IMG/VR virus record: IMGVR_UViG_3300043395_002952
Location: 1 to 23,455 of that record
Length of the DNA: 23,455 nt
Direction: 5' to 3' (one strand)
Source: a virus
Shown: positions 915 to 19,942 of the stretch, one piece after another
How positions within the stretch are numbered: position 1 is the first letter of the stretch
Layout: each line of letters begins with the position of its first letter
Translations under genes and position numbers: made by a program
Notes under the pieces: model-generated
Database searches by the model: none
Told to the model about the DNA's origin: nothing
The model's input: only the letters and a program-made list of their open reading frames with translations

Positions 915-915
915 T

Positions 916-2449: not shown

Positions 2450-3077
2450 AAACTTAGAATATCATGAAGATAGATGGGTAGATGGTAATTTATCACCCGA
2501 AGAGTTGATACAATTTGAAGATGATGTAATTAAACATTGGGAAGCAGGTAAAATCAGAGGACCAATACACCTTTCAAATGGAAATGAAGAACAACTTATT
2601 GAAGTTTTCAAAAAAATAAGTGTTGATGATTGGGTTTTTTCCACTTGGAGGTCACATTATCATGCACTTTTACATGGAATTGATAGAAGTTGGTTGATGG
2701 GTGAGATTTTAGATGGAAAAAGTATTACAATTGTGAATAAAAAGTGTAATTTTTATTCATCTGCAATTGTAACTGGTATTTTACCCATCGCATTAGGTGT
2801 TGCTCAATCAATTAAACTAAAAGGTGAAGATAAAAAGGTATGGTGTTTCATTGGTGATATGACTTTTGAGACCGGAATCTTTTATGAGGTTCATAAATAC
2901 GCTAGAAATAATAATTTACCACTATATTTTGTGGTAGAAGATAATGGAGTTTCTACAAATACTCCAACTTTGGATACTTGGGGTGGAATTCAAAGAGAAA
3001 TTCCGGAAGATGTGATTTATTATCAATATAAATCAAAATATCCACACTACGGAACTGGAAAATGGGTAGTATTTTAA
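2439..3077 (+). CDS. Thiamine-diphosphate enzyme, E1-alpha/transketolase N-terminal-like subunit (short)
   Basis: At 212 residues this is much shorter than normal E1-alpha subunits (about 320-400). The E1-alpha pattern is visible: WRSHYHALLHG (70-80), the glycine-rich helix ITGILPIALGVAQ-type stretch near 110-123, then the cofactor site with Gly139-Asp140 and Asp168-Asn169, the spacing of the family's GDG...NN motif. Two changes stand out: GDG is GDM, and the first Asn of NN is Asp, so Asp140 and Asp168 could still bind the metal. The chain stops soon after the cofactor domain. The gene at 9592 supplies the matching pyrimidine-binding half with the catalytic Glu, so the two probably form one enzyme. 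In a sugar cluster such an enzyme could transfer a two-carbon unit to or from a keto-sugar. The fold is well supported; the reaction is inference. Confidence 0.8.
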   Translation: MEIKNLEYHEDRWVDGNLSPEELIQFEDDVIKHWEAGKIRGPIHLSNGNEEQLIEVFKKISVDDWVFSTWRSHYHALLHGIDRSWLMGEILDGKSITIVNKKCNFYSSAIVTGILPIALGVAQSIKLKGEDKKVWCFIGDMTFETGIFYEVHKYARNNNLPLYFVVEDNGVSTNTPTLDTWGGIQREIPEDVIYYQYKSKYPHYGTGKWVVF

Positions 3078-3081
3078 GAAT

Positions 3082-4287: not shown

Positions 4288-4724
4288 AAGTAATAATTGA
4301 TATAGATAATACATTATCGAATAGTAATATAAGATTTGCCCTAGCAACAAGACCAAATGGGAAAATAGATTGGGAAGCAGCACATATTCCTAATAATATT
4401 TTGATGGATGACCCATTTCATCCAATGATTGATTTGGCAAAAAAATATAAAAGAGATGGATTTGAAGTTATACTACTTACAGGTCGACCTGAATCAGTTA
4501 GAGGGGTTACAATCGAATGGTTAAAAAAATATGATATAGAATATGACCAATTGATTATGAGAAGTTGGGAAGATAATTTTTTAAAGGCACCAATTTACAA
4601 AAAGAAAATGTATGAAACTTATATCAAAGATGGAGTATTTTGTGCATACGATGATGACCAACGTATAATTGATATGTGGATAGATTTAAAAATACCTTGT
4701 TTTAAAGTTCATGTTATTGATTAA
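4284..4724 (+). CDS. HAD phosphatase resembling the 3'-phosphatase domain of T4 Pnkp (PseT)
   Basis: This 146-residue protein is a complete single-domain HAD phosphatase. Motif I is DIDNT (Asp6 nucleophile, Asp8), motif II is LLTGRPE (Thr66), motif III includes Lys101 (KAPIYKK) and motif IV is DDD (123-125). The order and the surrounding WL, MR and MW...C...V positions match the phosphatase half of T4 polynucleotide kinase; no kinase domain (P-loop) is attached. In this operon the substrate could be a phosphorylated sugar rather than a nucleic-acid 3'-phosphate, but the sequence does not decide between them. The start overlaps the radical SAM stop as ATGA, and the end overlaps the next gene by 14 bases. 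The phosphatase call is strong. Confidence 0.85.
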   Translation: MKVIIDIDNTLSNSNIRFALATRPNGKIDWEAAHIPNNILMDDPFHPMIDLAKKYKRDGFEVILLTGRPESVRGVTIEWLKKYDIEYDQLIMRSWEDNFLKAPIYKKKMYETYIKDGVFCAYDDDQRIIDMWIDLKIPCFKVHVID

Positions 4725-5667
4725 TAGAAATCCACAAACATTAGAAGAGCTAGGTTCAATTTATATTGGCCCATTAGTATTCAATTACTTTAAATGGTTA
4801 ATTGATAATTTAAATGGTGCAGATTTAGTTTTGTTTAATTCACGCGAAGGATATTTTTTAAAAGAGATTTGGGAACTATACAAAGATAAATACGATTTAC
4901 CAAAAAGTGTATATTTTAAAACATCTCGTAAGTTAGCATCAATGATTTCGTTTACAAATGAAACTGAAATATACGAATCATTCAAACTACATCGATATGA
5001 AGGTGATATTAACGATTTGTTATTTGATAGATTTGGTATTAAATCAAATGTTCCTACCAAATGGATTGATACGAAAATAGAACTACCAGATTTGAGTGAA
5101 TGGATAGAAACAATTATAATAAAATCAAATGAATTAAGAACCGAATATAAAAAGTATATCGATGATGTAATCGGTTCGGCAAAAAATATTATAATGGTAG
5201 ATAGTGGATTTCAAGGAACAACTCAATATTATTTAGAAAAAGTTTATGGATATAAATTCAGAGGAAAATATTTTACATATAAAGGTAACTTACCTATAAA
5301 AGATGCAGAAGGGTTATATCCATTTTATGAATCAAAATTTAAAGATAATATAATATTTTTTGAATCTATTTTTATAGATAAAGTTGGAACATATATTGAT
5401 TTGGTAAACGGGAATTTTATTAATGGTGATTGGGAAATAACCGAAGCAGATTTTAAAAATAAACAATCTATCATAAGTGGTATAAAAGAATATATAAAAT
5501 CCAATATGTCAACCCCATATTTGACTTCGTTGCAAATAGAATTTGGTGATTATATTTTTGATAAAATGTGTGAAATCGGATATATAGAAAATGAAACATT
5601 ATTTAATAGTTTCAAACATGAAAATAAATTTGTTAGAAATTCTATAAAAACAATAATTAGAAAATGA
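4711..5667 (+). CDS. COG5610-like predicted hydrolase-associated protein of glycan loci
   Basis: The 318-residue protein resembles the C-terminal region of COG5610 proteins (predicted HAD-superfamily hydrolases commonly found beside glycosyltransferases). The shared features are IGPLVFNYFKWL near the start, LFNSREGYFLKEIW (41-54, in the place of the family's 'LSRDGY' block), a Ser-Arg-Lys block (KTSRKLAS), and IMVDSGFQGTTQYYL (161-175, corresponding to 'VDxGxxGT'). The HAD domain itself is absent, although a separate HAD protein is encoded immediately upstream with a 14-base overlap; the pair may reproduce the two-domain arrangement. No signal peptide or membrane segment is seen. The biochemical role of this region is not established, so I give the family resemblance only. 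The gene overlaps the next glycosyltransferase-like gene by ATGA. Confidence 0.65.
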   Translation: MLLINRNPQTLEELGSIYIGPLVFNYFKWLIDNLNGADLVLFNSREGYFLKEIWELYKDKYDLPKSVYFKTSRKLASMISFTNETEIYESFKLHRYEGDINDLLFDRFGIKSNVPTKWIDTKIELPDLSEWIETIIIKSNELRTEYKKYIDDVIGSAKNIIMVDSGFQGTTQYYLEKVYGYKFRGKYFTYKGNLPIKDAEGLYPFYESKFKDNIIFFESIFIDKVGTYIDLVNGNFINGDWEITEADFKNKQSIISGIKEYIKSNMSTPYLTSLQIEFGDYIFDKMCEIGYIENETLFNSFKHENKFVRNSIKTIIRK

Positions 5668-6860
5668 TGGATAGTAAAATAAATTTTATATTTGGCGATG
5701 GTGAAATAAATGGAAATGAGTGGTTTCATCAATCCGCATTATATCATTATGTTATAAACAATCCAAATTTTACAAAAACAACAAATTATAGTTTATCGGA
5801 TTCAACTAAAAATATTTTCTTATTAGAATGTAGAACATCATTAGAAGATTTTTATAGAAAAGATTCGAATAATAAATCAGTTTTAGATATATTACCAATT
5901 CATATTATAGAATCTATAAAAAAAGGTAATACTAAAATTTTATTATCATCTATAGCAGAGGCAACTGAAATAGTACCTAATTTTTTTGATAATCTAACAA
6001 ACGAATTAAATAAATTTGGTTTAGATGAAACACATTTAATATTATTAGATTCTAATCAAAATTTTTTAGATGTATCTACCAAATTTAAAATATATACAAC
6101 TTTGCATTTTATAGTAATTTGTAGTTATCAACCAAATGAAATAAATGATTTAAATTATATATCAGAATTACCTACAAAAAAAGAAGTATTAGCTATAACA
6201 AAACGAAACAAACATTTCATATGTTTAAATAGAAATTCACAAAGACCACATCGTTATTATCTATCTTTGTTTTTTGAAAAATATAAATTATATAATAAAT
6301 CGTTATATTCTTTATTATTACCCTTACATCAGAACAATTATAAAAAATTAGAAGATTTAGAACGATATAAACCATTAGTAAGTGAACGAATTCCTATGGA
6401 ATTGGATACGCAAAATAGACTTAAATCACTAAATGGATTTCATGTAGGTAATACGTTTTTTAAAGAACATTATTTAGATTCATATTTTAATATTACAACC
6501 GAAACTTGCTTTCAAGAAGGACAAATATTTTTTACTGAAAAAATATTAAAACCAATAATGTGTTTACAACCATTTATAATTTTATCATCTGCAAATTATT
6601 TAAAAAAATTAAAAGGATTGGGATTTAAAACATTTGATTCTATTTGGGATGAAAGTTATGATGAAATTGAAGATAATGAAGACCGTTTGATTAAAATATT
6701 TAATCTAATTTTAAAAATAAGTCAATGGTCTTTGGAAGAATGTGAAAAAAACTATAAATCCGTTTTAGATATATGTATATATAATAGAGAACATCTATCT
6801 ACGTTTTGGAAAATAGATGAATTCAGTAATATTTTAAATTCAATAAAAAATGAATGGTAA
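5664..6860 (+). CDS. Glycosyltransferase-like protein, paralogue 2
   Basis: This 398-residue protein is homologous to the genes ending at 914 and 11563. The central block is FICLNRNSQRPHR (185-197, with Asn189, Arg190, Arg194, Arg197). The C-terminal block is FFTEKILKP (289-297), LQPFI (301-305), LGFKTF (319-324) and DESYD (329-333), followed by amphipathic helices. The N-terminal 180 residues have no counterpart that I recognise and are not visibly shared with the other two, a pattern expected if that half binds different acceptors. The architecture (variable N-half, conserved TEK/KP C-half) suggests a GT-B glycosyltransferase related to the GT10-like group; this is inference. Base composition is very low in G+C (for example 10 of 60 at 6241-6300), lower than the SDR genes that follow. 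It overlaps its neighbours by 4 and 11 bases. Confidence 0.7.
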   Translation: MMDSKINFIFGDGEINGNEWFHQSALYHYVINNPNFTKTTNYSLSDSTKNIFLLECRTSLEDFYRKDSNNKSVLDILPIHIIESIKKGNTKILLSSIAEATEIVPNFFDNLTNELNKFGLDETHLILLDSNQNFLDVSTKFKIYTTLHFIVICSYQPNEINDLNYISELPTKKEVLAITKRNKHFICLNRNSQRPHRYYLSLFFEKYKLYNKSLYSLLLPLHQNNYKKLEDLERYKPLVSERIPMELDTQNRLKSLNGFHVGNTFFKEHYLDSYFNITTETCFQEGQIFFTEKILKPIMCLQPFIILSSANYLKKLKGLGFKTFDSIWDESYDEIEDNEDRLIKIFNLILKISQWSLEECEKNYKSVLDICIYNREHLSTFWKIDEFSNILNSIKNEW

Positions 6861-7815
6861 AAAGGTTTTGATAACAGGTGCCAACGGCTTGGTTGGTAAT
6901 TATATGGTAGAAAAGTGTTTACAAAGAGGTGCAATCGTAACCGCAGTAGATATTGTAGTACCTGAAAATCAATTAGAAAAGTACAAAAATAGTGATTATC
7001 AGTTCATCAAAGCTGATTTAAGAGAATTCAAAAATTGTAAAAGAGTAGTGGAAGGACAAGATGTTATTTTCCACATTGCAGGTGTAAAGGGTTCTCCAAA
7101 AAGAGCAGCAGAACAACCGGCAGATTATTTTGTACCAATGTTGCAGTTCAATACCAATATGATGGAAGCTGCAAGATTAGAAAACGTAGAATGGTATGTT
7201 TATACATCAACAGTGGGAGTATATCAACCGGCGGAAGTATTTTATGAAGATGATGTGTGGAAAACCTTTCCATCAGAAAAAGACAAATATGCAGGTTGGG
7301 CAAAAAGACTTGGAGAATTACAAGCAGAAGTTTATTCCGTATCATACGATTGGAATAAAGCATCAATTGTAAGACCAGCAAACATTTATGGTAGACATGA
7401 TAACTTTGGTCCAGAATCTACTGTCATTGCATCCTTAATCAAACGTTTATTTGGTGAGAAAGAACATCCGTTAGTATGTTGGGGAGATGGTTCACCAATT
7501 AGAGATTTTATTTATGCAGGAGATGTTGCCGATGGTATTATTCAAGCATACCAACAAGGAATTACAAAACCAATCAATTTAGGTAGTGGAACTGGTGTAA
7601 CAATCAAAGAACTTGCTGAAACTTTGGTGGAAATATATGAGGAAATGTATGGTGAAAAAGTTGAAATAAACTGGGACCCAACTAAACCAAATGGAGATGA
7701 AAAGAGATTGATGAGTACGGAACGTGCAGAATCATTTGGAATCAAACAAAAAGTATCCTTAAAGACAGGATTACGACATACAATTGATTACTACTTAAAT
7801 GAATATAAAAAATAA
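6850..7815 (+). CDS. NAD(P)-dependent sugar epimerase/reductase, GDP-L-fucose synthase-like SDR
   Basis: This is a 321-residue extended SDR with TGANGLVG at the N-terminus (Gly10, Gly13, Gly16). It then shows a stretch typical of the GDP-fucose synthase/WcaG group: FNTNMMEAAR, YTSTVGVY, AGWAKRLGELQAE, IVRPANIYG and the C-terminal CWGDGSPIRDFIYAGDVADG-type block. The usual Tyr-x3-Lys active-site motif is not exact: the nearest tyrosine (147) and lysine (152) are separated by four residues, and the conserved string is GWAKR. Ser120/Thr121 occupy the serine position. The likely role is reduction or epimerisation of a GDP- or dTDP-linked 4-keto-6-deoxy sugar. G+C is visibly higher than in the gene before it. 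It overlaps the upstream gene by 11 bases and is followed after 3 bases by a second SDR of the same subgroup. Confidence 0.87.
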   Translation: MNGKKVLITGANGLVGNYMVEKCLQRGAIVTAVDIVVPENQLEKYKNSDYQFIKADLREFKNCKRVVEGQDVIFHIAGVKGSPKRAAEQPADYFVPMLQFNTNMMEAARLENVEWYVYTSTVGVYQPAEVFYEDDVWKTFPSEKDKYAGWAKRLGELQAEVYSVSYDWNKASIVRPANIYGRHDNFGPESTVIASLIKRLFGEKEHPLVCWGDGSPIRDFIYAGDVADGIIQAYQQGITKPINLGSGTGVTIKELAETLVEIYEEMYGEKVEINWDPTKPNGDEKRLMSTERAESFGIKQKVSLKTGLRHTIDYYLNEYKK

Positions 7816-7818
7816 GTT

Positions 7819-8811
7819 ATGAAAAAAACGGACAAGATTTTAGTTACAGGTGCAAGTGGATTTATTGGTTCACATCTATTAAGATTATTATGGGAAAGGG
7901 GTTATAGAAACCTACGAGCAACATCTCATAGTAGAAATTTAAGAAATGATTTTGTGGGAACATCTGAAATAGCATTTTACAAAGGAAATTTACAAGATGC
8001 AAAGTTTTGTAATGAAGTTTCCGATGGAGTAGATGTAGTATTCCATTGTGCAGCAAACACATCAAATGCATTAGATACAAAAGAGAATCCTTTATTACAC
8101 GTTACTCCAAATGTGGAAATGAATGTAAACTTAATGGAACAAAGTTGGAGAAATGGTGTTAAGAAATTTTTATTCATTTCATCTAATACAGTTTATCCAG
8201 ATATGAAAGATGAATATTGTACCGAAGATATTAATGTACATGCAACTCCAACATTCCCAATCTATGGTGCAGTTGGTAATATGAAAAGATATGGCGAATT
8301 ACTTTGTGATTATTTTTCACACCAAATTCACAACCCAATGCAATGTTTGATTGTTAGACCTTCAAATGCATTCGGCCCAAACGATAAATTTGATTTTGAA
8401 AAATGTCATGTTACACCTGCAAACATTCGTAAAGTTGCGGATAATTTAAATCCAATTCCGGTATGGGGTGATGGTTCTGAAATTAGAGATTTATTGCACG
8501 TAGAAGATATGGCAGATGGATTTATTTGGGTTGCTGAGAATAATGATACATACAACATCTTTAATGTTGCTTATGGAAAGGGTTATAGTGTTAATGAGGT
8601 ATTGGGTTGGATTAAAGAAATCGAAGGAAACACAAACCCAATCGAATTTGTAAATAATAAAGCACCGATGATTCCTGTTAGATTACTTTCATCTAAAAAA
8701 ATTAATGATGCAGGTTGGAAACCAAAAAGAGATTTGAAACAAGCTCTAAAAGAAACCATTGAGTGGTATAAAGAACACAAAAACGAATACAATCCAAATT
8801 CAAAACCATAA
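7819..8811 (+). CDS. NAD(P)-dependent sugar epimerase/reductase, second SDR of the same type
   Basis: The 330-residue extended SDR has TGASGFIG (Gly11, Gly14, Gly17), FISSNTVY around Ser121/Ser122, IVRPSNAFGP, and a C-terminal VWGDGSEIRDLLHVEDMADG-type block that matches the same block in the preceding gene. The active-site region reads IYGAVGNMKRYGELLC: Tyr149 lies seven residues before Lys156, so the textbook Tyr-x3-Lys is absent, as in the gene before it. Together the two suggest consecutive or heteromeric steps on one nucleotide sugar. The final residues GWKPKRDLKQALKETIEWY are the usual end of this family. The start follows the previous stop by three bases and the stop codon shares a base with the next start (TAATG). 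The sugar substrate is not identifiable. Confidence 0.87.
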   Translation: MKKTDKILVTGASGFIGSHLLRLLWERGYRNLRATSHSRNLRNDFVGTSEIAFYKGNLQDAKFCNEVSDGVDVVFHCAANTSNALDTKENPLLHVTPNVEMNVNLMEQSWRNGVKKFLFISSNTVYPDMKDEYCTEDINVHATPTFPIYGAVGNMKRYGELLCDYFSHQIHNPMQCLIVRPSNAFGPNDKFDFEKCHVTPANIRKVADNLNPIPVWGDGSEIRDLLHVEDMADGFIWVAENNDTYNIFNVAYGKGYSVNEVLGWIKEIEGNTNPIEFVNNKAPMIPVRLLSSKKINDAGWKPKRDLKQALKETIEWYKEHKNEYNPNSKP

Positions 8812-9590
8812 TGATTACGAAAGGTATATTAGGAATCGGTTGTTCATTTATGTGGGGTGAGGGTTTGTATTATTATACAGAATTAAACAATACACCTAAA
8901 TTAAAACCTACACATGGATTTGATGGTACACATATGCTGTCAGAATCACATATAAAATTTAAAGACAAACATAGATTTTTACAATTAGTATCAGATAACT
9001 ACGGAATGTGGAATATTTCTAATACTGGTAATGGTGGTTCAAACGTAAGAAACATACAAGATTATATTGATGCGTATTTAACAAAATCAACTCCAATAGG
9101 TTTAACTGATTTTGATTTAATTGTATATCAATTTACATCATCGGATAGAGATTTTATAAATCAACGAAGAACAGAAGAAGGTTGGATAACTGGAGACCCA
9201 ATGCCAATAGAAGAACAAATAGAATTTGTTAATAATGAAATTACTAAATGGGAATCAAATGGTATTAAAGTTGTAACATTTAGTTGGTATCCAGAATTTC
9301 CAAATCACCCATTATATCAAAAATATTTTAAACATAGACATCTTAATATTGAGGTAGATGGCGAGATTCAAAATTCATTTGAACATTTTTTAAAAAATGA
9401 TAAATATGGTATTACAATTTCATCTGATTTTGCATCAATTGGTATGCAAGTAAATGATATTCATTTTAATTTAAAAGGTCATCGTTGTATTGCAAATTCT
9501 ATAATTAAAAAATTAAATAACGATAATTGGATACCAACAAATATAGATGAAATTACGTTAATAGAAAATATTAAAAAACAATATACATAA
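8811..9590 (+). CDS. SGNH/GDSL-family hydrolase (putative glycan O-acyl esterase or acyltransferase)
   Basis: This 259-residue protein has the SGNH blocks in order. Block I is LGIGCSFMWGEG with the nucleophile Ser12. A glycine-rich NTGNGGSN (71-78) occupies the block II position. A strand LIVYQFTSSDRD follows at about 103-114, and the C-terminal NDIHFNLKGH (215-224) has Asp216 and His218 for the catalytic pair. The block V spacing is Asp-x-His rather than the more common Asp-x-x-His. No signal peptide or membrane helix is present, so a periplasmic role is unlikely. In a sugar operon such proteins remove or add acetyl or other acyl groups on the glycan. The family call is good; the substrate is inferred from the neighbours. 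It joins its neighbours by a one-base stop/start overlap upstream and a one-base gap downstream. Confidence 0.82.
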   Translation: MITKGILGIGCSFMWGEGLYYYTELNNTPKLKPTHGFDGTHMLSESHIKFKDKHRFLQLVSDNYGMWNISNTGNGGSNVRNIQDYIDAYLTKSTPIGLTDFDLIVYQFTSSDRDFINQRRTEEGWITGDPMPIEEQIEFVNNEITKWESNGIKVVTFSWYPEFPNHPLYQKYFKHRHLNIEVDGEIQNSFEHFLKNDKYGITISSDFASIGMQVNDIHFNLKGHRCIANSIIKKLNNDNWIPTNIDEITLIENIKKQYT

Positions 9591-9591
9591 T

Positions 9592-10137
9592 ATGAGTTCA
9601 CCAAATTATACACCATATGTAGATGCATTGACAACCGCAATGAAAACTATTATGGAAGATGATTCAACAATATTCATAGGACAACAAATTGTTTACTACG
9701 GAAATCCCATGTCAAAAACCATTGAAGGATTACCAAAAGAAAAAATGATTGAAGTACCTGTTATGGAAGAAACACAAATGGGTATGAGTTTAGGATTGGC
9801 AATGAATGGTCATAAAGTAGTTACATTTTATCCACGTTGGGATTTTCTTATTTGTGCAACAAATCAATTAGTAAATCATTTAGACAAGATAAAACTAATG
9901 TCAGACGATGAATGGAATCCACATATTCTTATACGAGTTGGTAAAGGCTCTGATAAACCATTAGACCCAGGTCATCAACACAAAGGAAATTATACCGAAG
10001 AATTTAAATCGATGTGTCCAAATATTGAATTTCATAATTTAAAGACTTGGCAAGATGTTGAATTAAGTTACAAATACGCAATTGAAAATGAAGGTATTCA
10101 TATATTGGTAGAATACCCAGAACTATATTATGCATAA
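9592..10137 (+). CDS. Thiamine-diphosphate enzyme, E1-beta/transketolase pyrimidine-binding subunit (short)
   Basis: The protein has 181 residues and corresponds to the N-terminal domain of E1-beta (normal length about 325). It begins YVDALTTAMKTIMEDDSTIFIG, continues with EVPVMEETQMGMSLGLAMNG where Glu59 falls at the conserved catalytic Glu, and then FYPRWDFLICATNQLVNH, which corresponds to the family's 'FADF...Q..N' helix. The transketolase C-terminal domain is missing. It contains HQHKGNYTEEF, comparable to the E1-beta loop. It lies 6.5 kb downstream of its natural partner at 2439, separated by seven genes. A functional two-subunit enzyme is inferred from the complementary halves, and nothing else in the window could supply the missing half. 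The start follows the SGNH stop by one base and the end overlaps the next gene by 8 bases. Confidence 0.8.
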   Translation: MSSPNYTPYVDALTTAMKTIMEDDSTIFIGQQIVYYGNPMSKTIEGLPKEKMIEVPVMEETQMGMSLGLAMNGHKVVTFYPRWDFLICATNQLVNHLDKIKLMSDDEWNPHILIRVGKGSDKPLDPGHQHKGNYTEEFKSMCPNIEFHNLKTWQDVELSYKYAIENEGIHILVEYPELYYA

Positions 10138-11563
10138 TCCGATAGATAATTTTTATGTAGTTTATGATTTTTTTGGACCAAATGGACATATTCCAAATGC
10201 GTTCAATTATTTCTATGCATATAAGTTTTTTGAAGAAGGTGGACAGATAAATAATGTAGTAAGTGACCATTTTTTTAAAAATTTTATACAAGTACCAGTT
10301 TATAATGCAGATTTAAATTTAAATGTAAATTTGTATAAAAAAATTTCATTTAATCAGTACAACGATATCAGAATAAAAACTGATAAATCATTTATTTATT
10401 TAGTAGAACCATTTGGTAGTTTTGCACAATTTTTAGGAAAACAAACACAATTTTCCGAATGGAATTTTTTAGATTTTATATCAGACCATGCTAAAAAAGA
10501 AATCAAAAACACACCTAATTTTTATTTACATATAAATTTTTCTACGGAAGGAGTTTTTGAAGAACATTTAATTGTTTATTTATACGAATTATTAAAAAAA
10601 TATGAAATACCTGCAAATAAAGTAATTTTTACTATTTCTAGTGTTGATATTGAAGAAATACATAATAAAATTTGTTTAGAAAACAACATATCGGAAAGAA
10701 TAAACGTAAAATATTGGGGTTGGTCTTTAAGAATGAAATCATTAGAAATGAAAAGAATTTATAATAACATAAATTATAAATTTTGGGACCACGTTGATAA
10801 CGATAGTACAATTGTAAAAGAAGAAGATGTTAATTTTGATAGAATACGACCACATAAATTTTTATTTATGAATCGTAGATTAAGACCACAACGAGTTGTT
10901 TTATTATCACTTTTAGGTTCTGATTTTATAAATCAAAATTTAGTATCATATGATATGAAGATGTTTGATAGAGAAAATGACCTTTCATTTTTTTCACATC
11001 ATTTGAAAACAAGTCATCTTGCTATAAATTCATTTAGAGAATTTCAACATTTGATAAAAGCACAACGTAAAACTATTGATTATGATGATATAGAATCAGT
11101 TTGGGGATTTAATTTTGAAAATAAAGAACCATATTTAGATACTTACATTCATATTTTATCAGAAACAAATTTTTATGAAACAGGTTTGTATTTATCAGAA
11201 AAAACATGGAAACCGATTGGTCATTTACAACCATTTATAATGATAAATAAACCAGGGGCTTTAAAAGAATTACATAAATTGGGATTTAAAACATTTTCAC
11301 CTTTTATAAATGAAGAATATGATAATATAGAACATGATTGTGAACGTATGGAATTTATATATGCAGAAATTATGCGTTTAAATTCGTTATCATTCGATGA
11401 AATACACAATTGGTATAAATCAATTTGGGATATACTTATTTACAATAGAAATCTTTTATTTGATTACGCAGATAAAAAAGATTGGATAGAAAATAATTTT
11501 ATAATAACATTAAGAGATTATATAAATGAAAAAGATAATAAAAATAATACAAGATTGGTTTAA
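10130..11563 (+). CDS. Glycosyltransferase-like protein, paralogue 3
   Basis: At 477 residues this is the longest of three related proteins in the cluster. It has FLFMNRRLRPQR (244-255, with Asn248, Arg249, Arg252, Arg255), then SEKTWKP (356-362), LQPFI (366-370), LGFKTF (384-389) and NEEYD (394-398). These match the blocks in the genes at 3-914 and 5664-6860. Residues 1-240 form a separate alpha/beta half (FYVVYDFFGPNGHIPNAF at the start) that could be the acceptor-binding domain of a GT-B enzyme. The assignment to a glycosyltransferase rests on the block order and on the operon, not on a proven homologue. It overlaps the upstream thiamine subunit by 8 bases, and its last 38 bases overlap a small basic gene in another frame. 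Confidence 0.7.
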   Translation: MHNPIDNFYVVYDFFGPNGHIPNAFNYFYAYKFFEEGGQINNVVSDHFFKNFIQVPVYNADLNLNVNLYKKISFNQYNDIRIKTDKSFIYLVEPFGSFAQFLGKQTQFSEWNFLDFISDHAKKEIKNTPNFYLHINFSTEGVFEEHLIVYLYELLKKYEIPANKVIFTISSVDIEEIHNKICLENNISERINVKYWGWSLRMKSLEMKRIYNNINYKFWDHVDNDSTIVKEEDVNFDRIRPHKFLFMNRRLRPQRVVLLSLLGSDFINQNLVSYDMKMFDRENDLSFFSHHLKTSHLAINSFREFQHLIKAQRKTIDYDDIESVWGFNFENKEPYLDTYIHILSETNFYETGLYLSEKTWKPIGHLQPFIMINKPGALKELHKLGFKTFSPFINEEYDNIEHDCERMEFIYAEIMRLNSLSFDEIHNWYKSIWDILIYNRNLLFDYADKKDWIENNFIITLRDYINEKDNKNNTRLV

Positions 11564-11654: not shown

Positions 11655-11697
11655 CATTCATATTTATATACTAAGATAGAGCAGTAAATTATGAATG
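11655..11697 (+). promoter_or_regulatory. Inverted repeat pairing the start codon of the 1968-residue gene with the promoter-element edge
   Basis: CATTCATA at 11655-11662 is the exact reverse complement of TATGAATG at 11690-11697, which contains the ATG of the gene at 11691. With one bulged T (11689), TTTA at 11663-11666 pairs with TAAA at 11685-11688, giving about 12 pairs and an 18-base loop. The left arm overlaps the ATATTTATATAC element. In read-through RNA the start codon would be masked. AT-rich chance pairing is possible, so confidence is moderate. Confidence 0.45.
11660..11671. promoter_or_regulatory. Conserved intergenic element ATATTTATATAC (copy 1), probable late promoter
   Basis: The 45-base space between the small gene and the 1968-residue gene contains ATATTTATATAC, identical over 12 bases to the element before 22174 and close to those before 17656 and 19943. 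On the minus strand it contains TATAAATA, the T4 late-promoter core; on the + strand the TTTATATAC part would be the -10-like face. Being about 20 bases from the start codon, it is a plausible promoter for the gene at 11691. The direction of action is uncertain. Confidence 0.5.
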
Positions 11698-14600
11698 AAT
11701 TAAGTAAATATCTGATGGAACAAATACTTTTAACCGAAGAGGAGTTAAAAGATTTTGTTGTAGTATATTCAGGTAGATTCCAACCATTTCACAAAGGTCA
11801 TTTTGCAACTTATCAAGGACTTGTAAAAAAGTTTGGTAAGGATAAAGTGTATATCGGTACATCTAATAAAACCGATAATCAAAAATCACCATTTAATTTT
11901 AAGGAAAAGAAAACCATAATGACTAAAATGTTTGGTATTCCATCAAACAAAGTGGTTGAGGTTAAAAATCCTTATGCTCCTACTGAAATACTTAAAAATT
12001 TCGATGAAAATAAGACTGGATTTATCACTGTCGTTGGTGAGAAAGATGAAGCAAGATTAGGTGGTAAATACTTTGAACCATATAAAGGTAAAATTGAATT
12101 TGGATATAAAGATAAAGGATATGTTTATGCTTCACCTGCTCAACCAAACGCAGTAAGTGGAACTGATGTTCGTAATTGGTTAAGTAAAGGTAGTGATGAG
12201 GAAAAAAGAAAGAATTTCTTAAAAGCATATCCAAAATTTGATGAAACAATTTATAAATTCATCACACTTAAATTAGCAAAATTAGGAGAAGGATTTCCTG
12301 GCGGAGTTGGAGTAGGATTATCATTACCGGGTGGATATATTAATGGTGCACCATCTGCAGAAGATACTAAAAAGGTTAAGAAAAAATTAGATAGTGAAGA
12401 TGATGTAAACGAAGCTATTAAATGGGAAGAAGATACATATAAAAAATGTATGCTTGGTAAATTACCACTTTCACTTAATATTGTTAAAAAATTAGTAAAC
12501 CCTATAAGAACAACATCATTACATGCAACTGATGTTGAAAATTTACCAAAAGTAGCAGCATTACAAGGAACTAAAAAATCAATTTCTACATTTAGTCAAA
12601 CTTCAAAATACGGAAAACTTGTACAAGGAAAAGCAATGCATACAAAAGGTGGTATAATTGTAGCATTATCAGGTGTAGTATTGGCTCAAAGTATAATGGA
12701 CTTGTGGACTGAACCAGATAAACAAGGTAGACGATGGGTAGAACCGGGAACTATAATAGATGGATTGGGTAGGGAAAGAGATGTTGTATTTAACTTTGCA
12801 CCTGAATTAAAAAAATATAAAGAAAATTGGAAACACCACTCTTTTGATGGTACAATTACTAATGCAGAAAAGGCCGAATTCATAAAGAAATATTATGAAG
12901 CTGCTGAAAAGTATATGTTGAGTAAGAAAAAAATATTTCAAGACCAATATTTAAATTCAAATAAATTATATTATGATTCAGATTGGAATGAGGTAGTTCT
13001 TACCGATATTAAAATTGAAAAGATTTTAGCAATTCCTTCTAATTGGAGTGATGATGATGTTGAAAATGAAAAAACATTAAAACAACTTAAACAAAAATAC
13101 AAAAATGTAGAAGTTGCAGATAAAGAATCCGAAATTCAAAGTTTTATTAAACAAAATGGTGGAACTATTACGGAATCGGTAAACGAAGAAATTAAATTAG
13201 ATGTTAATATCGGTGATACTGTCTTAATGGGTAAATTTAAGAACAAAAAAGTAGTTGTAAAATCAATTGGTAAAGATGAACATGGAATGCCAACAATTAA
13301 TGGTAAAAAAGCAACTACATTTAGAATATTACCAAAACAAAATATTTTTAAAGAAGATATGACAAACAATGTAGATATAGTTGATGAAATAATTGGTGAA
13401 TATTCCCACTTATTAGATTTATTAGAAGGAAATGATGACGAAAAATACGTTCACGTTGGATATGGTAAATATAAAGAAAAGGGACATGAAAAAGACCAAA
13501 ATGCACCTACATTTGAAAAAGATGATAGTGGTAAATACATTGAATTAAAATCAGATAACCCAACCGCACAAAAACCTAAACCAACTGGTCAAGCAATACA
13601 AGGTGCAGATATGTTTAAACATGATAAAAGTGTAAAACAACAACCTACTAAACAAACTGAACCAACACAAGATTGGACAAACGGAAAAGATGGTTGGGAA
13701 ATATTAGATGATGCACGTTCAAACGTAAAAAATATCAGAGATTATACTGATGAAGAATATCAAGGTGAGACGGGTGAGTATTTTGAGAATGCTGTAACTA
13801 AAAATGTTGCACCAAATGCATTCAAAGATGAAGCAGATATGATTCAGAAAATGAAAGCAGCCAAACCAACTTATTTATCATCGGAAGAGATGCAAAATAT
13901 GAGTAATACCGATGTTGGTGAAGTTCTTTCTGCAAGCGAGAGTGGTGGTAAGAAAGCAATGATTGCAAAAGGTAAATCTCTTGCAGATGAATATGGTAAA
14001 GATTGGAATAGATTAGAAAAAGGTATTCAAAAAGGTAACGATGTACCTTCACCAATTGCTTTGAGAGATAAGAATGGTGATTTACATTTAGTTGCGGGAA
14101 ATACACGTTTAATGTCATTCACTGCATATGGTAAAAAATTACCTGTAAAAGTTATTGATTATGATGGGGTGTTTAATAAAGAAGCAGAACCGGAAGATGG
14201 TGGTGTAGATGTTTCAAAATATAGTGTAAAGAATTTACAAAGAAAGATTAGTGGTTGGGCAGAAAAAGAAAAACAATTCTTTGAAAAACATCAAGAAAAA
14301 CCCAAATCAGAAGAACGTAGAAGTTGGAGTGAAGCATTAAAAGATAAAGTAAAGGGTGCAAGACATGCAATTGTTCATGGATTTAAGCATGAATATGAAA
14401 CATTTAAAACTGCAGGTGAAGCAGTAGTAATGTTTGCAAACGGAATGCCATTAACTGATGAACAAATTGATTCGGTTAAAGCAGTTGCTAAAAAAGTAGC
14501 AATAGCAACTATATTAGGAGTTGCAACTGGTGGATTATCACATGGAGTAATGCCATTTGTTGGACATTTAATAGCAGAATTCGTTCCTCATACTGTAGCT

Positions 14601-17597
14601 GAAACTATTGCAGTTGGTGCAGGAAAAGCAGCAATATTTGCAGATGTAAATGAACAAGAAAGATTAATGGGACAATTTATGGATAAAATTGCAGATGCAT
14701 TAGAAAATGATAAAATTCCAGCAGATGTAATGGAGAAAGCAATTGATTCATATAATAAACAACAAAATGTTTCTGAAATGAGTCAATCTCAATTAAAACA
14801 AATTGAAAAATACGCAGATAAACAATTATCACCTGAAGATATTGAGTTCAGTAGACATTTCTTTGATAGAGTTAATGATACTCGTAATGGTAAAGAAATA
14901 TCAGAACCAGAATTGACTGGATTCTTTAAAAGATTATCTCGTCATAAAAAAGAATTTAAAGATTTCTTAGAAAAATATCAACAAATTGTTGTTAAAGATA
15001 AGAGAAACGATATAAACATTCCATTTGTAAAAGTTGCAAATCATATTATTGCTAAAACAGTGATGAGAAAAGATGATTTTAAATCATCGAATCCAACTCT
15101 TGCAGTTGAGATTGCAGTACAAGTGGATAAAATTCCAGGTGGTTTAGCAAAAGGATTATCTTTAAATGATATTGCTAAAAAACATAATGTTTCAATTGAA
15201 GATATAACCGATGAATTTAAAAAAGGTTATAAAACTGAAAGAGAACATACAACTGATGGGGATATTGCAAAAGAAATTGCAATGGACCATTTATTCGAAG
15301 ACCCGCAATATTATACAAAATTAGCATCAGTAGAAGAAGATAGAATACCACAAAGTTTTAATTATGGAACTGGTTGGGATTATCATACTGCGATTGGAAC
15401 TAATCCTAACAAATATAGAGGTAAAACTAATTTCCCAACAAAAGATTCAGGTCAGCCAGATTTAGAAGATGAAGATGAAGAAGATGTAAATGAAATTGGC
15501 GTAGGAACTGGTCAAAATGGAATAAGACCCGAATATCCAAAGGGTGATAAATTATCAGATAGAATGGATGATGTTGAAAAAGCTAGAACTAAAACTGATT
15601 CTGATAAAGAATTACAATATAAAAAGATAAACGAAATCCAAAAAGGATTATTTAAGGGTAAAATAAAAGTTGGAGGTCAACCGGTTGAAGTTGAAGTTGA
15701 ATTAGTTGGTGCAGATAATAAAAATAGAGATTTTATTACAAAAGTAATTCATATTGATAAACAATATCAAAATAAATTACCAATAGGTTCTACATTACCT
15801 ATTCCTGCTAGAATATTTAGACATGGTGGATGGGTAAAAATCAAATCTTCTGCGTTCGAAAGTGCAATTGATGAAGTAACTGGTTCAGGTGATGGAACTA
15901 TGGGTGGATTCTTTAATGATGGTAATTCTACAACTGGTTATGCATGGAATGCAGATTGGAGTGATTACGATGAACAAGGATATTATTTAGATAATTTACC
16001 TGATTGGACCACTGTTCATCAAAAACCATCTGAATTTGAAAAGAAAAAAGCAACTGACCAAAAATTACCAATTGATAATCATAGTGATGGTAAAACAACA
16101 AAATACAATCGTATCTTAAAACAAAATTTTAAAGAACCACATGAGTTCTTAAAAACTGCAGATATTAAAGAGGTTTCGTCATCTGAAATTATAAAAGATT
16201 TAGATAAAGTAAAAAATGATTTACTTAAAAAAGTAGATGTATTAGTTGCCAAAAAGAAGAAATTATATTCTAATGTAGATATTGAATCACCAATGTCTGC
16301 AGATGAAAAAAAATTAGATAAAGAAATTGCTGATTTATTTTCACAAATCAACAAATTGGTTCTTCAAAAGAGAAGTTTAAAAGAAGGTCTTTTAAAAGAA
16401 GGTGGTGCATACGGACATATGAATCATCCATTTGATACCGAAATTAATTTAACATTCGGACAATTAAAAGATATTGTAAATCGTGCTTTAGATGGTAATT
16501 TAGAATTGGCTAGAGAGAAAACTGATGGACAAGCATTAGCAATCAGTTGGGTGAATGGTAAATTAGTTGCAGCTCGTAATAAATCACATTTAGCTAATAG
16601 AGGTGCAAATGCATTGGATATTAGTGGTGTTGCTACTAAGTTCGCTGGAAGAGGTGAATTGGAAAAAGCATATAACTTTGCAATGAAAGATTTAACAAAA
16701 GCTATATCATCACTTTCTGCTAAACAAAAAGAAAAGATTTTTAAGAATGGTGCGTGTTTTATGAATATTGAGGTAATATATCCAACATCAATAAACGTTA
16801 TACCATACGGACAACCTTTATTAGTATTCCACGGAACAATGGAATATGATGAGAGTGGTAACGCAATAGGTGAATCTGCAGAAGCAGGTAGAATATTGGG
16901 TGGTATGATTAAACAAATTGAACAACACGTACAAGATAATTACACTTTACAAGGACCTCCTGTATTGAAATTACCTAAATCACAAGACCTTTCATCTAAA
17001 AAAGGAAAGTATCTTGCTAAAATAACTAAATTACAAAAAGAATTTGGTTTAGGTGATACCGCTGGAGTTGCAGAATATCATCAAGCATGGTGGGAAAACT
17101 ATGTAGATAAGAAATCCCCAACAATCTTAGATAATAACACTAAAATTGGATTAGTTAAGAGATGGGCGTTTGGTGAAAAGGGATTCCGTATTGATAAGAA
17201 TACAATTACCGATGAAAAAACTCTTGCTTGGGCAACTAAGATGGATAAAGAGGACCAAAAAGGAATCGCTAAAGATAATCTAATGAAATTTGAAGATATA
17301 TTCTTAGGTGTTGGTGCAGAAGTTCTACAATTCACATCATCAGTATTAACTGTTAATCCAGATAAGGCTGTTAGAGATATGAAGAAGAGATTAGACCAAA
17401 CAATCAAAGATGTTGAAGCATCTGGAGACCCTAAAAAGATAGAAAAATTAAAATTAGAATTAAAAAGATTAAGTGCAATCGGTGGACCATCTAAAATAGT
17501 TCCAATCGAAGGTATTGTATTCATATATAATGGTCAAACATTCAAATTGACCGGTGCATTCGCATCATTAAATCAACTTTTGGGTATTTTTTACTAA
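11691..17597 (+). CDS. 1968-residue multidomain protein: nucleotidyltransferase + ParB-like + ligase-like (candidate virion polyprotein)
   Basis: Domains in order: residues 22-200, a cytidylyltransferase-fold enzyme with GRFQPFHKGH (28-37, the HxGH motif) and SGTDVR (156-161); about 500-550, an SH3-like segment (VNIGDTVLMGKFKN); 720-826, a ParB-like segment with VAGNTRLMSF (801-810); 930-985, a hydrophobic Gly/Ala-rich stretch; 1054-1115, SRHFFDRVNDTRNGK followed by NDINIPF; about 1183-1212, EHT...IAKEIAMDHLFEDPQYYTKL, resembling DUF5661; 1497-1565, a coiled coil; 1590-1968, a ligase-like nucleotidyltransferase with KTDG (Lys1610), ARNKSH, Glu1694, EGIVF (1940-1944) and FKLT (Lys1952). LxE/G tripeptide sites lie at 200/201, 579/580, 1565/1566 and 1570/1571, suggesting cleavage by a T4 gp21-type protease. 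Nothing indicates a frameshift. The likely role is an internal head protein injected with the DNA, able to modify nucleotides or nucleic acids; this is inference, while the motifs are seen directly. Confidence 0.85.
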   Translation: MNELSKYLMEQILLTEEELKDFVVVYSGRFQPFHKGHFATYQGLVKKFGKDKVYIGTSNKTDNQKSPFNFKEKKTIMTKMFGIPSNKVVEVKNPYAPTEILKNFDENKTGFITVVGEKDEARLGGKYFEPYKGKIEFGYKDKGYVYASPAQPNAVSGTDVRNWLSKGSDEEKRKNFLKAYPKFDETIYKFITLKLAKLGEGFPGGVGVGLSLPGGYINGAPSAEDTKKVKKKLDSEDDVNEAIKWEEDTYKKCMLGKLPLSLNIVKKLVNPIRTTSLHATDVENLPKVAALQGTKKSISTFSQTSKYGKLVQGKAMHTKGGIIVALSGVVLAQSIMDLWTEPDKQGRRWVEPGTIIDGLGRERDVVFNFAPELKKYKENWKHHSFDGTITNAEKAEFIKKYYEAAEKYMLSKKKIFQDQYLNSNKLYYDSDWNEVVLTDIKIEKILAIPSNWSDDDVENEKTLKQLKQKYKNVEVADKESEIQSFIKQNGGTITESVNEEIKLDVNIGDTVLMGKFKNKKVVVKSIGKDEHGMPTINGKKATTFRILPKQNIFKEDMTNNVDIVDEIIGEYSHLLDLLEGNDDEKYVHVGYGKYKEKGHEKDQNAPTFEKDDSGKYIELKSDNPTAQKPKPTGQAIQGADMFKHDKSVKQQPTKQTEPTQDWTNGKDGWEILDDARSNVKNIRDYTDEEYQGETGEYFENAVTKNVAPNAFKDEADMIQKMKAAKPTYLSSEEMQNMSNTDVGEVLSASESGGKKAMIAKGKSLADEYGKDWNRLEKGIQKGNDVPSPIALRDKNGDLHLVAGNTRLMSFTAYGKKLPVKVIDYDGVFNKEAEPEDGGVDVSKYSVKNLQRKISGWAEKEKQFFEKHQEKPKSEERRSWSEALKDKVKGARHAIVHGFKHEYETFKTAGEAVVMFANGMPLTDEQIDSVKAVAKKVAIATILGVATGGLSHGVMPFVGHLIAEFVPHTVAETIAVGAGKAAIFADVNEQERLMGQFMDKIADALENDKIPADVMEKAIDSYNKQQNVSEMSQSQLKQIEKYADKQLSPEDIEFSRHFFDRVNDTRNGKEISEPELTGFFKRLSRHKKEFKDFLEKYQQIVVKDKRNDINIPFVKVANHIIAKTVMRKDDFKSSNPTLAVEIAVQVDKIPGGLAKGLSLNDIAKKHNVSIEDITDEFKKGYKTEREHTTDGDIAKEIAMDHLFEDPQYYTKLASVEEDRIPQSFNYGTGWDYHTAIGTNPNKYRGKTNFPTKDSGQPDLEDEDEEDVNEIGVGTGQNGIRPEYPKGDKLSDRMDDVEKARTKTDSDKELQYKKINEIQKGLFKGKIKVGGQPVEVEVELVGADNKNRDFITKVIHIDKQYQNKLPIGSTLPIPARIFRHGGWVKIKSSAFESAIDEVTGSGDGTMGGFFNDGNSTTGYAWNADWSDYDEQGYYLDNLPDWTTVHQKPSEFEKKKATDQKLPIDNHSDGKTTKYNRILKQNFKEPHEFLKTADIKEVSSSEIIKDLDKVKNDLLKKVDVLVAKKKKLYSNVDIESPMSADEKKLDKEIADLFSQINKLVLQKRSLKEGLLKEGGAYGHMNHPFDTEINLTFGQLKDIVNRALDGNLELAREKTDGQALAISWVNGKLVAARNKSHLANRGANALDISGVATKFAGRGELEKAYNFAMKDLTKAISSLSAKQKEKIFKNGACFMNIEVIYPTSINVIPYGQPLLVFHGTMEYDESGNAIGESAEAGRILGGMIKQIEQHVQDNYTLQGPPVLKLPKSQDLSSKKGKYLAKITKLQKEFGLGDTAGVAEYHQAWWENYVDKKSPTILDNNTKIGLVKRWAFGEKGFRIDKNTITDEKTLAWATKMDKEDQKGIAKDNLMKFEDIFLGVGAEVLQFTSSVLTVNPDKAVRDMKKRLDQTIKDVEASGDPKKIEKLKLELKRLSAIGGPSKIVPIEGIVFIYNGQTFKLTGAFASLNQLLGIFY

Positions 17598-17601
17598 AAA
17601 T

Positions 17602-17669
17602 AACTCTTTCGCCATATTTATCTATATTAAAATAAAAACCTAATATATAATAATAATGGCGAAAGAGTT
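17602..17669 (+). promoter_or_regulatory. Perfect 14-bp inverted repeat masking the start codon of the gene at 17656
   Basis: AACTCTTTCGCCAT (17602-17615) is the exact reverse complement of ATGGCGAAAGAGTT (17656-17669), the start codon and first codons of the next gene. A nested pair, TATATTA (17623-17629) with TAATATA (17641-17647), stacks inside around an 11-base loop. The left arm lies just after the stop of the upstream gene (17597) and its end overlaps the start of the ATATTTAT element. RNA that reads through from upstream would bury the ATG; RNA started near 17625 or later would lack the left arm. No strong Shine-Dalgarno sequence is present. The repeat is certain; the regulatory reading is inference from the known T4 lysozyme-type arrangement. 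Confidence 0.75.
17614..17625. promoter_or_regulatory. Conserved intergenic element ATATTTATCTAT (copy 2), probable late promoter
   Basis: The 58-base space before the gene at 17656 holds ATATTTATCTAT, matching copies 1 and 4 except for the C at its ninth base and the last base. On the minus strand this is GATAAATAT, one base off the T4 late core TATAAATA. It lies between the two arms of the inverted repeat, about 31 bases from the start codon. The orientation is undecided, as for the other copies. Confidence 0.45.
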
Positions 17670-18315
17670 TAATAAGAAATTTATGCATCCAACTCGTAGA
17701 AAGTTGGTTGATATGGTTTTGCATGGTAAAGATTATGAAACAAATACAACTTTGGGTTGGACTGGTGAAAAAACACAACGTAAAGTAGGTGATATTTGGG
17801 AAGATGATACATACCGATACGAAAAGAAAGAAGGGTTTATATTAAAAACATCAAAGAATTCAGAAGCTTTTGATGAATTGCGTAAATGGAGAGATGAGCA
17901 AGGTAGATGTAAAAGTCCAACTTGTAATACAATTAAATTAACTCCAACTCATAAGAAATTAATTGAAAAGACAGGGTATTGTGCTAATTGCTTAGCAGAA
18001 ATAGAAGGTAAAATTCGTATTGCTGGATTATGGGAACAATATGAAGATTATAAAATCTATACTCGTATGTTAGTTGAGGGCAAAATCAAATTAGAACAAC
18101 TACAACAAGCCCATGCGGAAGCAAAACAATACTACGAATATACAAATGAAGATGGAACAAGTGAAAAGTGGGAATTACCACAACCACTTGAAGAAGTTAA
18201 AGCAGAATTAATGGAAATGATTGAATATGGTAAAGAGGAATTGATTAAAGTAGAGGAATTCCGTAATAAAGCATTTGAAATTCTAAAAGAAAACAATTTG
18301 GAACACTATTTGTAA
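17656..18315 (+). CDS. Zn-binding phage protein upstream of TerL; candidate terminase small-subunit position
   Basis: The 219-residue protein has a four-cysteine metal site: Cys85 and Cys90 (RCKSPTC), then Cys109 and Cys112 (YCANC), separated by a Lys-rich segment containing LTPTHKKLIEKTG. The N-terminal 80 residues contain a basic helix (HPTRRKLVDMVLHGKD), and the C-terminal 90 residues are strongly helical and acidic, probably a coiled coil. It ends two bases before the terminase gene, where T4 has the small subunit gp16, but I see no gp16 similarity. It could be a DNA-recognition subunit for packaging, or a separate late regulator. Its start codon lies within a perfect inverted repeat, suggesting controlled translation. 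Confidence is high for the gene and the Zn site, low for the function. Confidence 0.8.
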   Translation: MAKEFNKKFMHPTRRKLVDMVLHGKDYETNTTLGWTGEKTQRKVGDIWEDDTYRYEKKEGFILKTSKNSEAFDELRKWRDEQGRCKSPTCNTIKLTPTHKKLIEKTGYCANCLAEIEGKIRIAGLWEQYEDYKIYTRMLVEGKIKLEQLQQAHAEAKQYYEYTNEDGTSEKWELPQPLEEVKAELMEMIEYGKEELIKVEEFRNKAFEILKENNLEHYL

Positions 18316-18316
18316 T

Positions 18317-19903
18317 ATGGCAGGTGCATCGTTAAAAGATATTATAAAGATTGAGTATCAGAAATGTGCTGGTGACCCGATTTATTTCATGCGTAAGTAT
18401 TGTATGATTCAACATCCGGTTAGAGGTAAGATTCCATTTCACTTATATCCTTTCCAAGAGGATACTCTTACTGATTTTAAGGATAATCGTTTCAACATCG
18501 TTCTTAAATCCCGTCAGACAGGTATATCAACCTTAGTTGCGGGGTTCTCATTATGGAAGATGTTATTTAATCAAGATTTTAACGTATTGGTAATTGCAAC
18601 TAAACAAGAAGTTGCTAAAAACCTTATCACAAAGATTAGGGTAATGAACCAATACTTACCGAGTTGGTTAAAACAAACAACAGTTGAAGATAATAAACTT
18701 TCATTACGATACTCAAATGGTTCACAGGCAAAAGCAACTTCTGCAGCAGGAGATGCTGGTCGTTCTGAAGCCTTATCACTCTTAGTATTTGATGAGGCCG
18801 CTTTCATCGATAGTATTGAAGAGATATGGATTTCTGCACAATCTACCTTATCAACGGGTGGTAATGCAATTATCCTTTCTACACCTAATGGTGTGGGTAA
18901 TTTCTTTCATAGAACATGGGTTGGTGCAGAAGAAGGTAGAAATGGTTTCAACACCATTCGTTTACACTGGTCAGTTCACCCTGAGCGTGGACAAGCATGG
19001 AGAGATGAACAAGAAAAGTTATTAGGACCAAAGGGTGCAGCACAAGAGTGTGATTGTGACTTCGTAAGTTCTGGTGATACTGTTATTGACCCTGCGTTAC
19101 TACAATTTTATAGAGAATCATATTGCTTAGAACCATTAGAGAAGACTGGATTTGATGGAAATCTTTGGAAATGGGAATATCCTGATTATAATCAATCTTA
19201 TATGGTAGTTGCCGACGTTGCACGTGGTGATGGTGGTGACTATTCTACTGCACAAGTATTTGATATTGTAAATTCAACACAAGTTGCTGAATATAAAGGA
19301 AAATTAGATACAAAAGATTTTGGAAATTTTTTAGTTTCACTTGCAACCGATTATAATAACGCATTATTGGTAATTGAGAACGCAAATATTGGTTGGGCAG
19401 TTATCCAACAAGTAATCGATAGAAATTATCCAAACTTATTTTATATGAGTAAGGATTTAAAATATGTGGATATTGCACATCAGATGTCAAACAAATTTAG
19501 AGCAGAAGAACGAGGTATGGTTGCTGGGTTCTCTACTACCTCTAAAACCCGTCCTTTAATTATTTCTAAGTTAGATGATTACCTAAGAGAAAAATCCTTT
19601 ACAATCCGTTCTACGAGGTTGATAGATGAATTATTTACATTTATTTGGAATGGTAATCGTGCAGAAGCAATGAAAGGATATAATGATGACTTAGTAATGG
19701 CTTTATCAATTGGATTGTGGGTTAGAGATACTGCATTGAGATTAAGACAAGAAGGTATTGATTTAACTAAACAAGCATTAGGTGGTATAAATCAAAGTGT
19801 AACAGATATTGGTGGATTTGGTGGAAATAGTGCATTTGAAGAAAATCCGTGGCAAATGAGAGTGGGTGGAGCATCCGAAGATTTGACTTGGTTGATTAAA
19901 TAA
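18317..19903 (+). CDS. terL: Terminase large subunit, T4 gp17-like (TerL)
   Basis: This is the DNA-packaging ATPase and nuclease, 528 residues against about 610 in T4. The ATPase has the Walker A-like LKSRQTGIST (63-72), Walker B LLVFDEAA (155-162, Asp159 and Glu160) and the coupling motif LSTPNG (187-192). The C-terminal RNase H-like nuclease has its acidic residues in VVADVARGDGGDYS (Asp300), VIENANIG (Glu354) and YNDDLVMAL (Asp457/458). All essential residues are intact, so it should be active. It docks on the portal and pumps DNA into the prohead. The start is two bases after the Zn-protein stop; this ATG is the only sensible start because the N-terminal helix (SLKDIIKIEYQKC) is retained. 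Placement just before the portal is normal for T4-like phages. Confidence 0.97.
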   Translation: MAGASLKDIIKIEYQKCAGDPIYFMRKYCMIQHPVRGKIPFHLYPFQEDTLTDFKDNRFNIVLKSRQTGISTLVAGFSLWKMLFNQDFNVLVIATKQEVAKNLITKIRVMNQYLPSWLKQTTVEDNKLSLRYSNGSQAKATSAAGDAGRSEALSLLVFDEAAFIDSIEEIWISAQSTLSTGGNAIILSTPNGVGNFFHRTWVGAEEGRNGFNTIRLHWSVHPERGQAWRDEQEKLLGPKGAAQECDCDFVSSGDTVIDPALLQFYRESYCLEPLEKTGFDGNLWKWEYPDYNQSYMVVADVARGDGGDYSTAQVFDIVNSTQVAEYKGKLDTKDFGNFLVSLATDYNNALLVIENANIGWAVIQQVIDRNYPNLFYMSKDLKYVDIAHQMSNKFRAEERGMVAGFSTTSKTRPLIISKLDDYLREKSFTIRSTRLIDELFTFIWNGNRAEAMKGYNDDLVMALSIGLWVRDTALRLRQEGIDLTKQALGGINQSVTDIGGFGGNSAFEENPWQMRVGGASEDLTWLIK

Positions 19904-19913
19904 AAAAATGTAT

Positions 19914-19933
19914 ATATTTATAGTGTATAGGAG
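19914..19933 (+). promoter_or_regulatory. Intergenic element ATATTTATAGTG (copy 3) followed by a clear ribosome binding site
   Basis: The 39-base space after TerL contains ATATTTATAGTG (19914-19925). Its minus strand reads CTATAAATAT, an exact T4 late core. AGGAG at 19929-19933 is a strong Shine-Dalgarno site nine bases before the ATG at 19943, one of only two good sites in the window. Direction of the element is undecided; the ribosome site is firm. Confidence 0.55.
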
Positions 19934-19942
19934 AAATATACC

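Follow-up and report, generated by a model that had tools for sequence, protein, structure and literature searches.

A predicted start-masking hairpin with a candidate late promoter ahead of a terminase gene in an uncultured T4-like phage

Described systems and the hairpin ahead of TerL

In phage T4, the genes e, soc, 49, I-TevI and others possess a hairpin that masks the start together with a late promoter, and in the case of e the effect is about 100-fold (PMC3014915, PMC2988022). On read-through RNA of e and soc, the start is covered by a helix; the promoter is found inside the structure, and its RNA has no left arm. In I-TevI, segB and mobE of Aeh1, the late promoter likewise lies beside a start-masking structure, and the genes are embedded in other transcription units (PMC2988022). 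A comparable arrangement of candidate promoter and start-masking structure is predicted at two genes of a virus record of 23,455 bases (29.4% G+C), which was analysed at full length and is called the window here; its hairpin arms, elements and the three genes given below with coordinates lie on the plus strand. Unlike in the case of I-TevI, segB and mobE, the masked genes of the window do not encode endonucleases, but a Zn-binding-type protein and a giant cytidylyltransferase-like protein. The proposed mechanism is already known from T4 e, soc and I-TevI; the novelty lies in the genes concerned, in the promoter element, and in the fact that coding sequence would be masked at a start that has no Shine-Dalgarno sequence.

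The hairpin consists of a left arm AACTCTTTCGCCAT at 17602-17615, which is the perfect reverse complement (14/14 pairs) of the right arm ATGGCGAAAGAGTT at 17656-17669, and the repeat reaches 20 nt at 90% identity. The right arm is the ATG plus codons 2-5 of the masked gene, a start that is conserved in all homologues. The 14-bp perfect inverted repeat over the ATG and the first codons, as described in the original prediction, is thus real, and also the nested 7-bp stem described there is present in the predicted minimum-energy fold, with the arms TATATTA at 17623-17629 and TAATATA at 17641-17647. For the hairpin region, the minimum-energy prediction gives -24.4 kcal/mol (z = -7.0), and none of 200 shuffles was equally good. 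When only the upstream stretch was shuffled, a stem of at least 14 bp with the start region of 17656 arose in 1 of 20,000 trials. A perfect stem of at least 14 bp with a gap of at most 60 was found anywhere in sequence of the window's composition in 3 of 40 shuffles, so that the hairpin is notable by its position, its G+C content and its conservation rather than by its length. No Rfam family scored above its gathering score within the window. An intrinsic terminator was considered for this hairpin and rejected, as the loop is too long, a T run is absent, and the terminator scan gave no terminator-like site there; that scan also gave none ahead of 17602 or ahead of 11655, where the second hairpin described below begins.

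The masked gene (17656-18315) encodes a protein of 219 aa with four invariant cysteines of the Zn-binding type and lies directly before the gene of the terminase large subunit, TerL (18317-19903), with a gap of 1 nt between its stop codon at 18313-18315 and the TerL ATG at 18317. TerL matches T4-type large terminases, the best-ranked annotated ones being those of Microcystis phage Mel-JY01 (54.9%) and Flavobacterium phage immuto (54.7%), and the portal protein matches a phage portal family. In Mel-JY01, the same region also encodes ribosomal protein S21. The 219-aa protein itself has no PHROG match and no Pfam match above cut-off, and its structural model of moderate confidence (mean pLDDT 73) has no PDB match at E <= 0.001.

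In T4 e and soc it is the Shine-Dalgarno sequence that is paired, and the promoter lies within the left arm, whereas in the window the predicted pairing covers the ATG and codons 2-5, and the candidate promoter is where the left arm ends. Also the promoter elements differ, being TATAAATA in T4 and ATATTTAT in the window, and the window's masked gene is the neighbour of a terminase. The 17656 start has no Shine-Dalgarno sequence; it has A at positions -3 and -6, as favoured in Flavobacterium johnsoniae, a member of the Bacteroidetes in which initiation proceeds without Shine-Dalgarno sequences and is tuned by open RNA near the start and by A at -3/-6 (PMC6847099). That study dealt with host genes and did not involve a promoter-hairpin switch. 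As initiation in Flavobacterium depends on structure at the start, a stem over the ATG should work well in a host of this type, if the phage has one. With regard to its predicted structure, the 17656 hairpin conforms to the type that is represented by T4 e, soc and I-TevI.

The candidate promoter element and predicted access to the start

The element ATATTTAT is located at 17614-17621, and its first two bases are also the last two of the left arm. The original prediction, in which the arm only touched the element, was correct as to the adjacency and has to be modified as to the contact, which is an overlap. A second instance at 11660-11667 was found by motif scan. Sites of the core TATTTATA lie at 11660, 17614, 19914 and 22127 in the window and are also present in the relatives G001, G002, G004, G005, G006 and L234. 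While the raw count of ATATTTAT in the window is not above chance (5 vs 9.2 expected), all four plus-strand copies are located in the four intergenic gaps of the window that exceed 20 nt. Among non-coding copies in the window and the long contigs of relatives that have a gene start at most 70 nt downstream, 81 are in sense and 11 in antisense orientation. Their neighbourhood reads tATAYTTATA and lies mostly 15-40 nt ahead of the ATG. In a relative of 287 kb, the structural part (200-287 plus 0-20 kb), which holds the genes of sheath, tube, baseplate, TerL, portal and capsid, has 25 sense and no antisense copies of ATAYTTATA, with 3 further copies in the replication region at 20-60 kb and an unassigned cluster of 7 at 70-100 kb. 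The sense orientation and the concentration in the structural half suggest that ATATTTAT is probably a late promoter, or more precisely its probable -10 element, and the promoter role that had been proposed for the element agrees with a distribution like that of a sense-oriented promoter of structural genes.

Read on the opposite strand, the core TATTTATA of the probable promoter gives the T4 late consensus, but here it is TATTTATA itself that is used in sense direction. The T4 consensus itself was found in sense before genes only 5 times in the window and its relatives, vs 69 times for TATTTATA, so the promoter is not of the T4 late type by sequence. Searches for the late sigma factor and coactivator (gp55, gp33) gave no match in relatives, in a setting without positive control. 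Several genes of Flavobacterium phage immuto are preceded by CTATTTATA. Some motif-bearing genes have a Shine-Dalgarno-like AGGAGA (window 19927-19942, L252 near 8731, L235:11398). In other cases, intrinsic terminators such as GGGAGTGGA..TCACTCCCTTTTTT are positioned directly ahead of the element (L240:420, L246:2230, L249:18730, L252:8700, and on the minus strand L257), and mark boundaries of transcription units.

The start at 17656 has a predicted exposure of 0.14 on RNA with its 5' end at 17604 or earlier, and of at least 0.69 when the 5' end is at 17614 or later. Like in T4 e and soc, a helix is thus predicted to cover the start on read-through RNA, a candidate promoter lies inside the structure, and its RNA would have no left arm. 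The predicted gain is similar, as the leader of T4 gene e rises in the same calculation from 0.28 to 0.54 with RNA from the nearer promoter. We regard it as fairly likely that the locus is best explained by an RNA hairpin that masks the start and whose left arm has a late promoter at its inner edge. RNA entering from upstream would contain both arms, the ATG and codons 2-5 would be paired, and ribosomes would start poorly. RNA begun at the ATATTTAT promoter would start a few bases inside the loop, after 17621, and so would lack the left arm and have an exposed start. Late RNA that is started locally would then be the main message for the 219-aa protein and perhaps for TerL, which follows after one base. 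Promoter activity, start site, timing and the inhibition of ribosomes are inferences, and a control of TerL, or its coupled translation, is inferred only from the gap of 1 nt.

Conservation and a second predicted hairpin at the giant gene

For the comparison with relatives, 80 related loci were fetched and further ones were collected by DNA pattern scans, the second of which returned mostly unrelated contigs and added L209. The repeat is kept in 9 of 9 distinct upstream sequences of one clade (window, L003, L006, L101, L009, L008/L087, L107, L010, L209), in which the protein is 77-100% identical to that of the window. The arms, the loss of which in close relatives had been named as evidence against the hairpin, are therefore retained, with some variation: the outer flank has diverged in L209 with a core of 11 intact pairs, and in L010 one pair is broken and not compensated. 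In L012 (75%) no more than an imperfect remnant is left. The hairpin is absent in the groups with 70% and 45-49% identity, although nearly all their members have the element ATAYTTAT. The hairpin can thus not be regarded as a feature of the whole 17656 gene family, as it is restricted to one clade. As the arms are nearly invariant in that clade, there is little true covariation at 17602/17656; the double changes that were counted there come from L012 and were set aside and not used as evidence, because L012 does not have the full hairpin.

The same layout of arm, ATATTTAT, and arm over the ATG is found in a second, weaker hairpin at the giant gene (11691-17597), which encodes 1968 aa with a cytidylyltransferase-like N-terminus. 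Here the left arm CATTCAT at 11655-11661 pairs with the right arm ATGAATG at 11691-11697, the latter being the ATG and the first codons. Motif-bearing starts were ranked by the length of the best stem that the start region can form with the sequence preceding the end of the motif; the 17656 gene of three clade members came first, and the giant-gene start of another relative was fourth. We collected 80 distinct orthologue starts, 78 of them with the motif; those with the layout include L099, L264, L280, L328 and L335. In many orthologues the arms differ in sequence from those of other relatives and nevertheless match each other, as do TAATCC with GGATTA, TCATTCAT with ATGAATGA, AATTTATTC with TGAGTGAATT, and ATAAATTATT with GAGTGATTTAT. 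By eye, both bases are changed in two pairs between L311 and L271 (C-G to G-C, U-A to C-G), and L271 has a bulge of one base.

A shuffle test (p <= 0.05) was applied to the pairing of the start region with the RNA that precedes the presumed transcription start. Pairing exceeded the shuffles at 9/9 starts of the 17656 gene in the hairpin clade, at 0/29 other 17656 starts, at 28/78 orthologues of 11691, and at 3/73 other motif-bearing starts, which is the level of chance. The latter show no excess, and the hairpin is therefore no general device of the phage. T4 gene e, included as positive control, was missed by this test, because its left arm is the promoter and is kept by the shuffle, so the test is blind to that design. 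Among the 11691 orthologues, own arms were better than swapped arms, with none of 2000 permutations reaching the value, and when the stop codon and the Leu codon were excluded, 15 of 5000 did, both without correction for relatedness. The same permutation gave no excess at the other motif genes. When dinucleotide shuffles were used and each of 33 protein clusters contributed a single value, the combined p was 8.5e-4 and 5/33 clusters were at or below 0.05; several clusters have no pairing, and the outcome of this strict test is moderate. In the subgroup of orthologues that is anchored by the stop codon, a formal count gave 88.3% paired cells vs 85.6% when shuffled (5/500), which is a modest difference, and one pair had changes on both sides. 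Between long and local RNA, the predicted exposure rises by a median of 0.31 at the 11691 gene vs 0.09 at other motif genes. The 11691 gene, which is absent from the original prediction, gives stronger and wider support for the masking logic than 17656. Its hairpin would be a less strong lock built in the same way, kept and re-matched in many relatives.

These data also bear on the possibility that the 17656 hairpin is a neutral inverted duplication, in which an ancestral template switch gave the clade an inverted copy of the gene start that was then inherited without function. The restriction to one clade with nearly invariant arms would be expected in that case, codons 2-5 of the gene show no unusual synonymous conservation, and stems of this length do occur in a few shuffled windows. 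However, the 58-nt gap with the left arm has changed less than the coding DNA on either side, being 91-100% identical to the window within the clade, where the gene behind it is only 79-83% and the end of the preceding gene 86-93% identical. The geometry moreover recurs at 11691 with differing but mutually matched arms, and other motif genes show no excess. A neutral origin is therefore rather unlikely.

Alternative roles and the relation of the two starts

A slightly less probable alternative, and likewise an unlikely one, is translational coupling, in which the hairpin would tie initiation to the arrival of ribosomes from the upstream gene that have reached its stop codon, with the local promoter being a separate matter. 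The stop codon of the giant gene at 17595-17597 is only 4 nt ahead of the left arm at 17602, and a terminating ribosome could thus open the base of the stem; if the first 6-8 nt of the arm are removed, the predicted exposure goes up from 0.14 to values of 0.37-0.46. The stop TAA of the upstream gene even forms part of the left arm in many 11691 orthologues. Yet the 11691 hairpin of the window is about 90 nt past the upstream stop (11563) and so beyond the reach of a terminating ribosome, and the placement of the left arm against the promoter element is not needed for coupling. The left arm of T4 e also adjoins a stop, that of nudE, and the leader nevertheless inhibits translation (PMC3014915). 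Although the promoter sits between two inverted 14-mers, the encoded protein has four invariant cysteines, and in T4 the operator bound by I-TevI overlaps with the late promoter of its gene (PMC2988022), a DNA-level operator for a repressor, possibly this Zn-binding-type protein itself, is very improbable, as one copy has to code for the protein start and the arms at 11691 vary among relatives but stay matched, which fits pairing and not a fixed binding site.

The masking of starts by hairpins next to a probable late promoter is the reading that we favour, and as a whole the interpretation of the original prediction is partly supported and plausible, with a limitation to one clade at 17656. 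The anatomy that had been likened to T4 does match, but as most relatives of the gene have no hairpin, it cannot be a general switch for packaging genes.

The giant gene is the first one after a stretch of about 11 kb (90-11563) in which the plus-strand element is absent and the genes of which are thus probably not driven by late promoters. By eye, these are sugar-nucleotide, epimerase-like and glycosyltransferase-like genes, and they read toward the late genes. It is conceivable, albeit doubtful, that start-masking hairpins are placed where an operon without late element meets late genes, with a conserved lock at 11691 and a stronger lock of one clade before TerL. If the 11691 start were masked on read-through RNA, few ribosomes would reach the stem at 17602, and the first lock would thereby keep ribosomes from the second, the packaging genes staying silent until the local promoters fire, in hosts that may lack Shine-Dalgarno initiation.

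If the masking is true, a textbook timing device of T4 would also operate in uncultured T4-like phages that use another promoter element and whose starts have no Shine-Dalgarno sequence, and such a device could rest on the coding sequence itself. The order of arm, ATATTTAT, and arm over the ATG could then serve as a signature for promoter-gated starts in metagenomes, and the hairpin layout makes a timing control at a packaging gene directly testable.

The giant protein has a DUF5661 domain, a weak RegB-like stretch and, as seen by eye, a ligase-like KTDG motif near its C-terminus; it is possibly a multi-enzyme virion protein. In L274 and L324, a terminator ends right at the promoter of the 11691 orthologue and the pairing is absent; an absence of pairing where a terminator precedes the promoter is only suggested by these few cases. 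Other orthologues (L325, L337, L340-L345, L347-L355) have an inner hairpin, such as TATATAGTA/TACTATATA or ATATAC/GTATAT, the left arm of which starts at the promoter element and the right arm of which lies just before the ATG, and which may be another form of the same lock.
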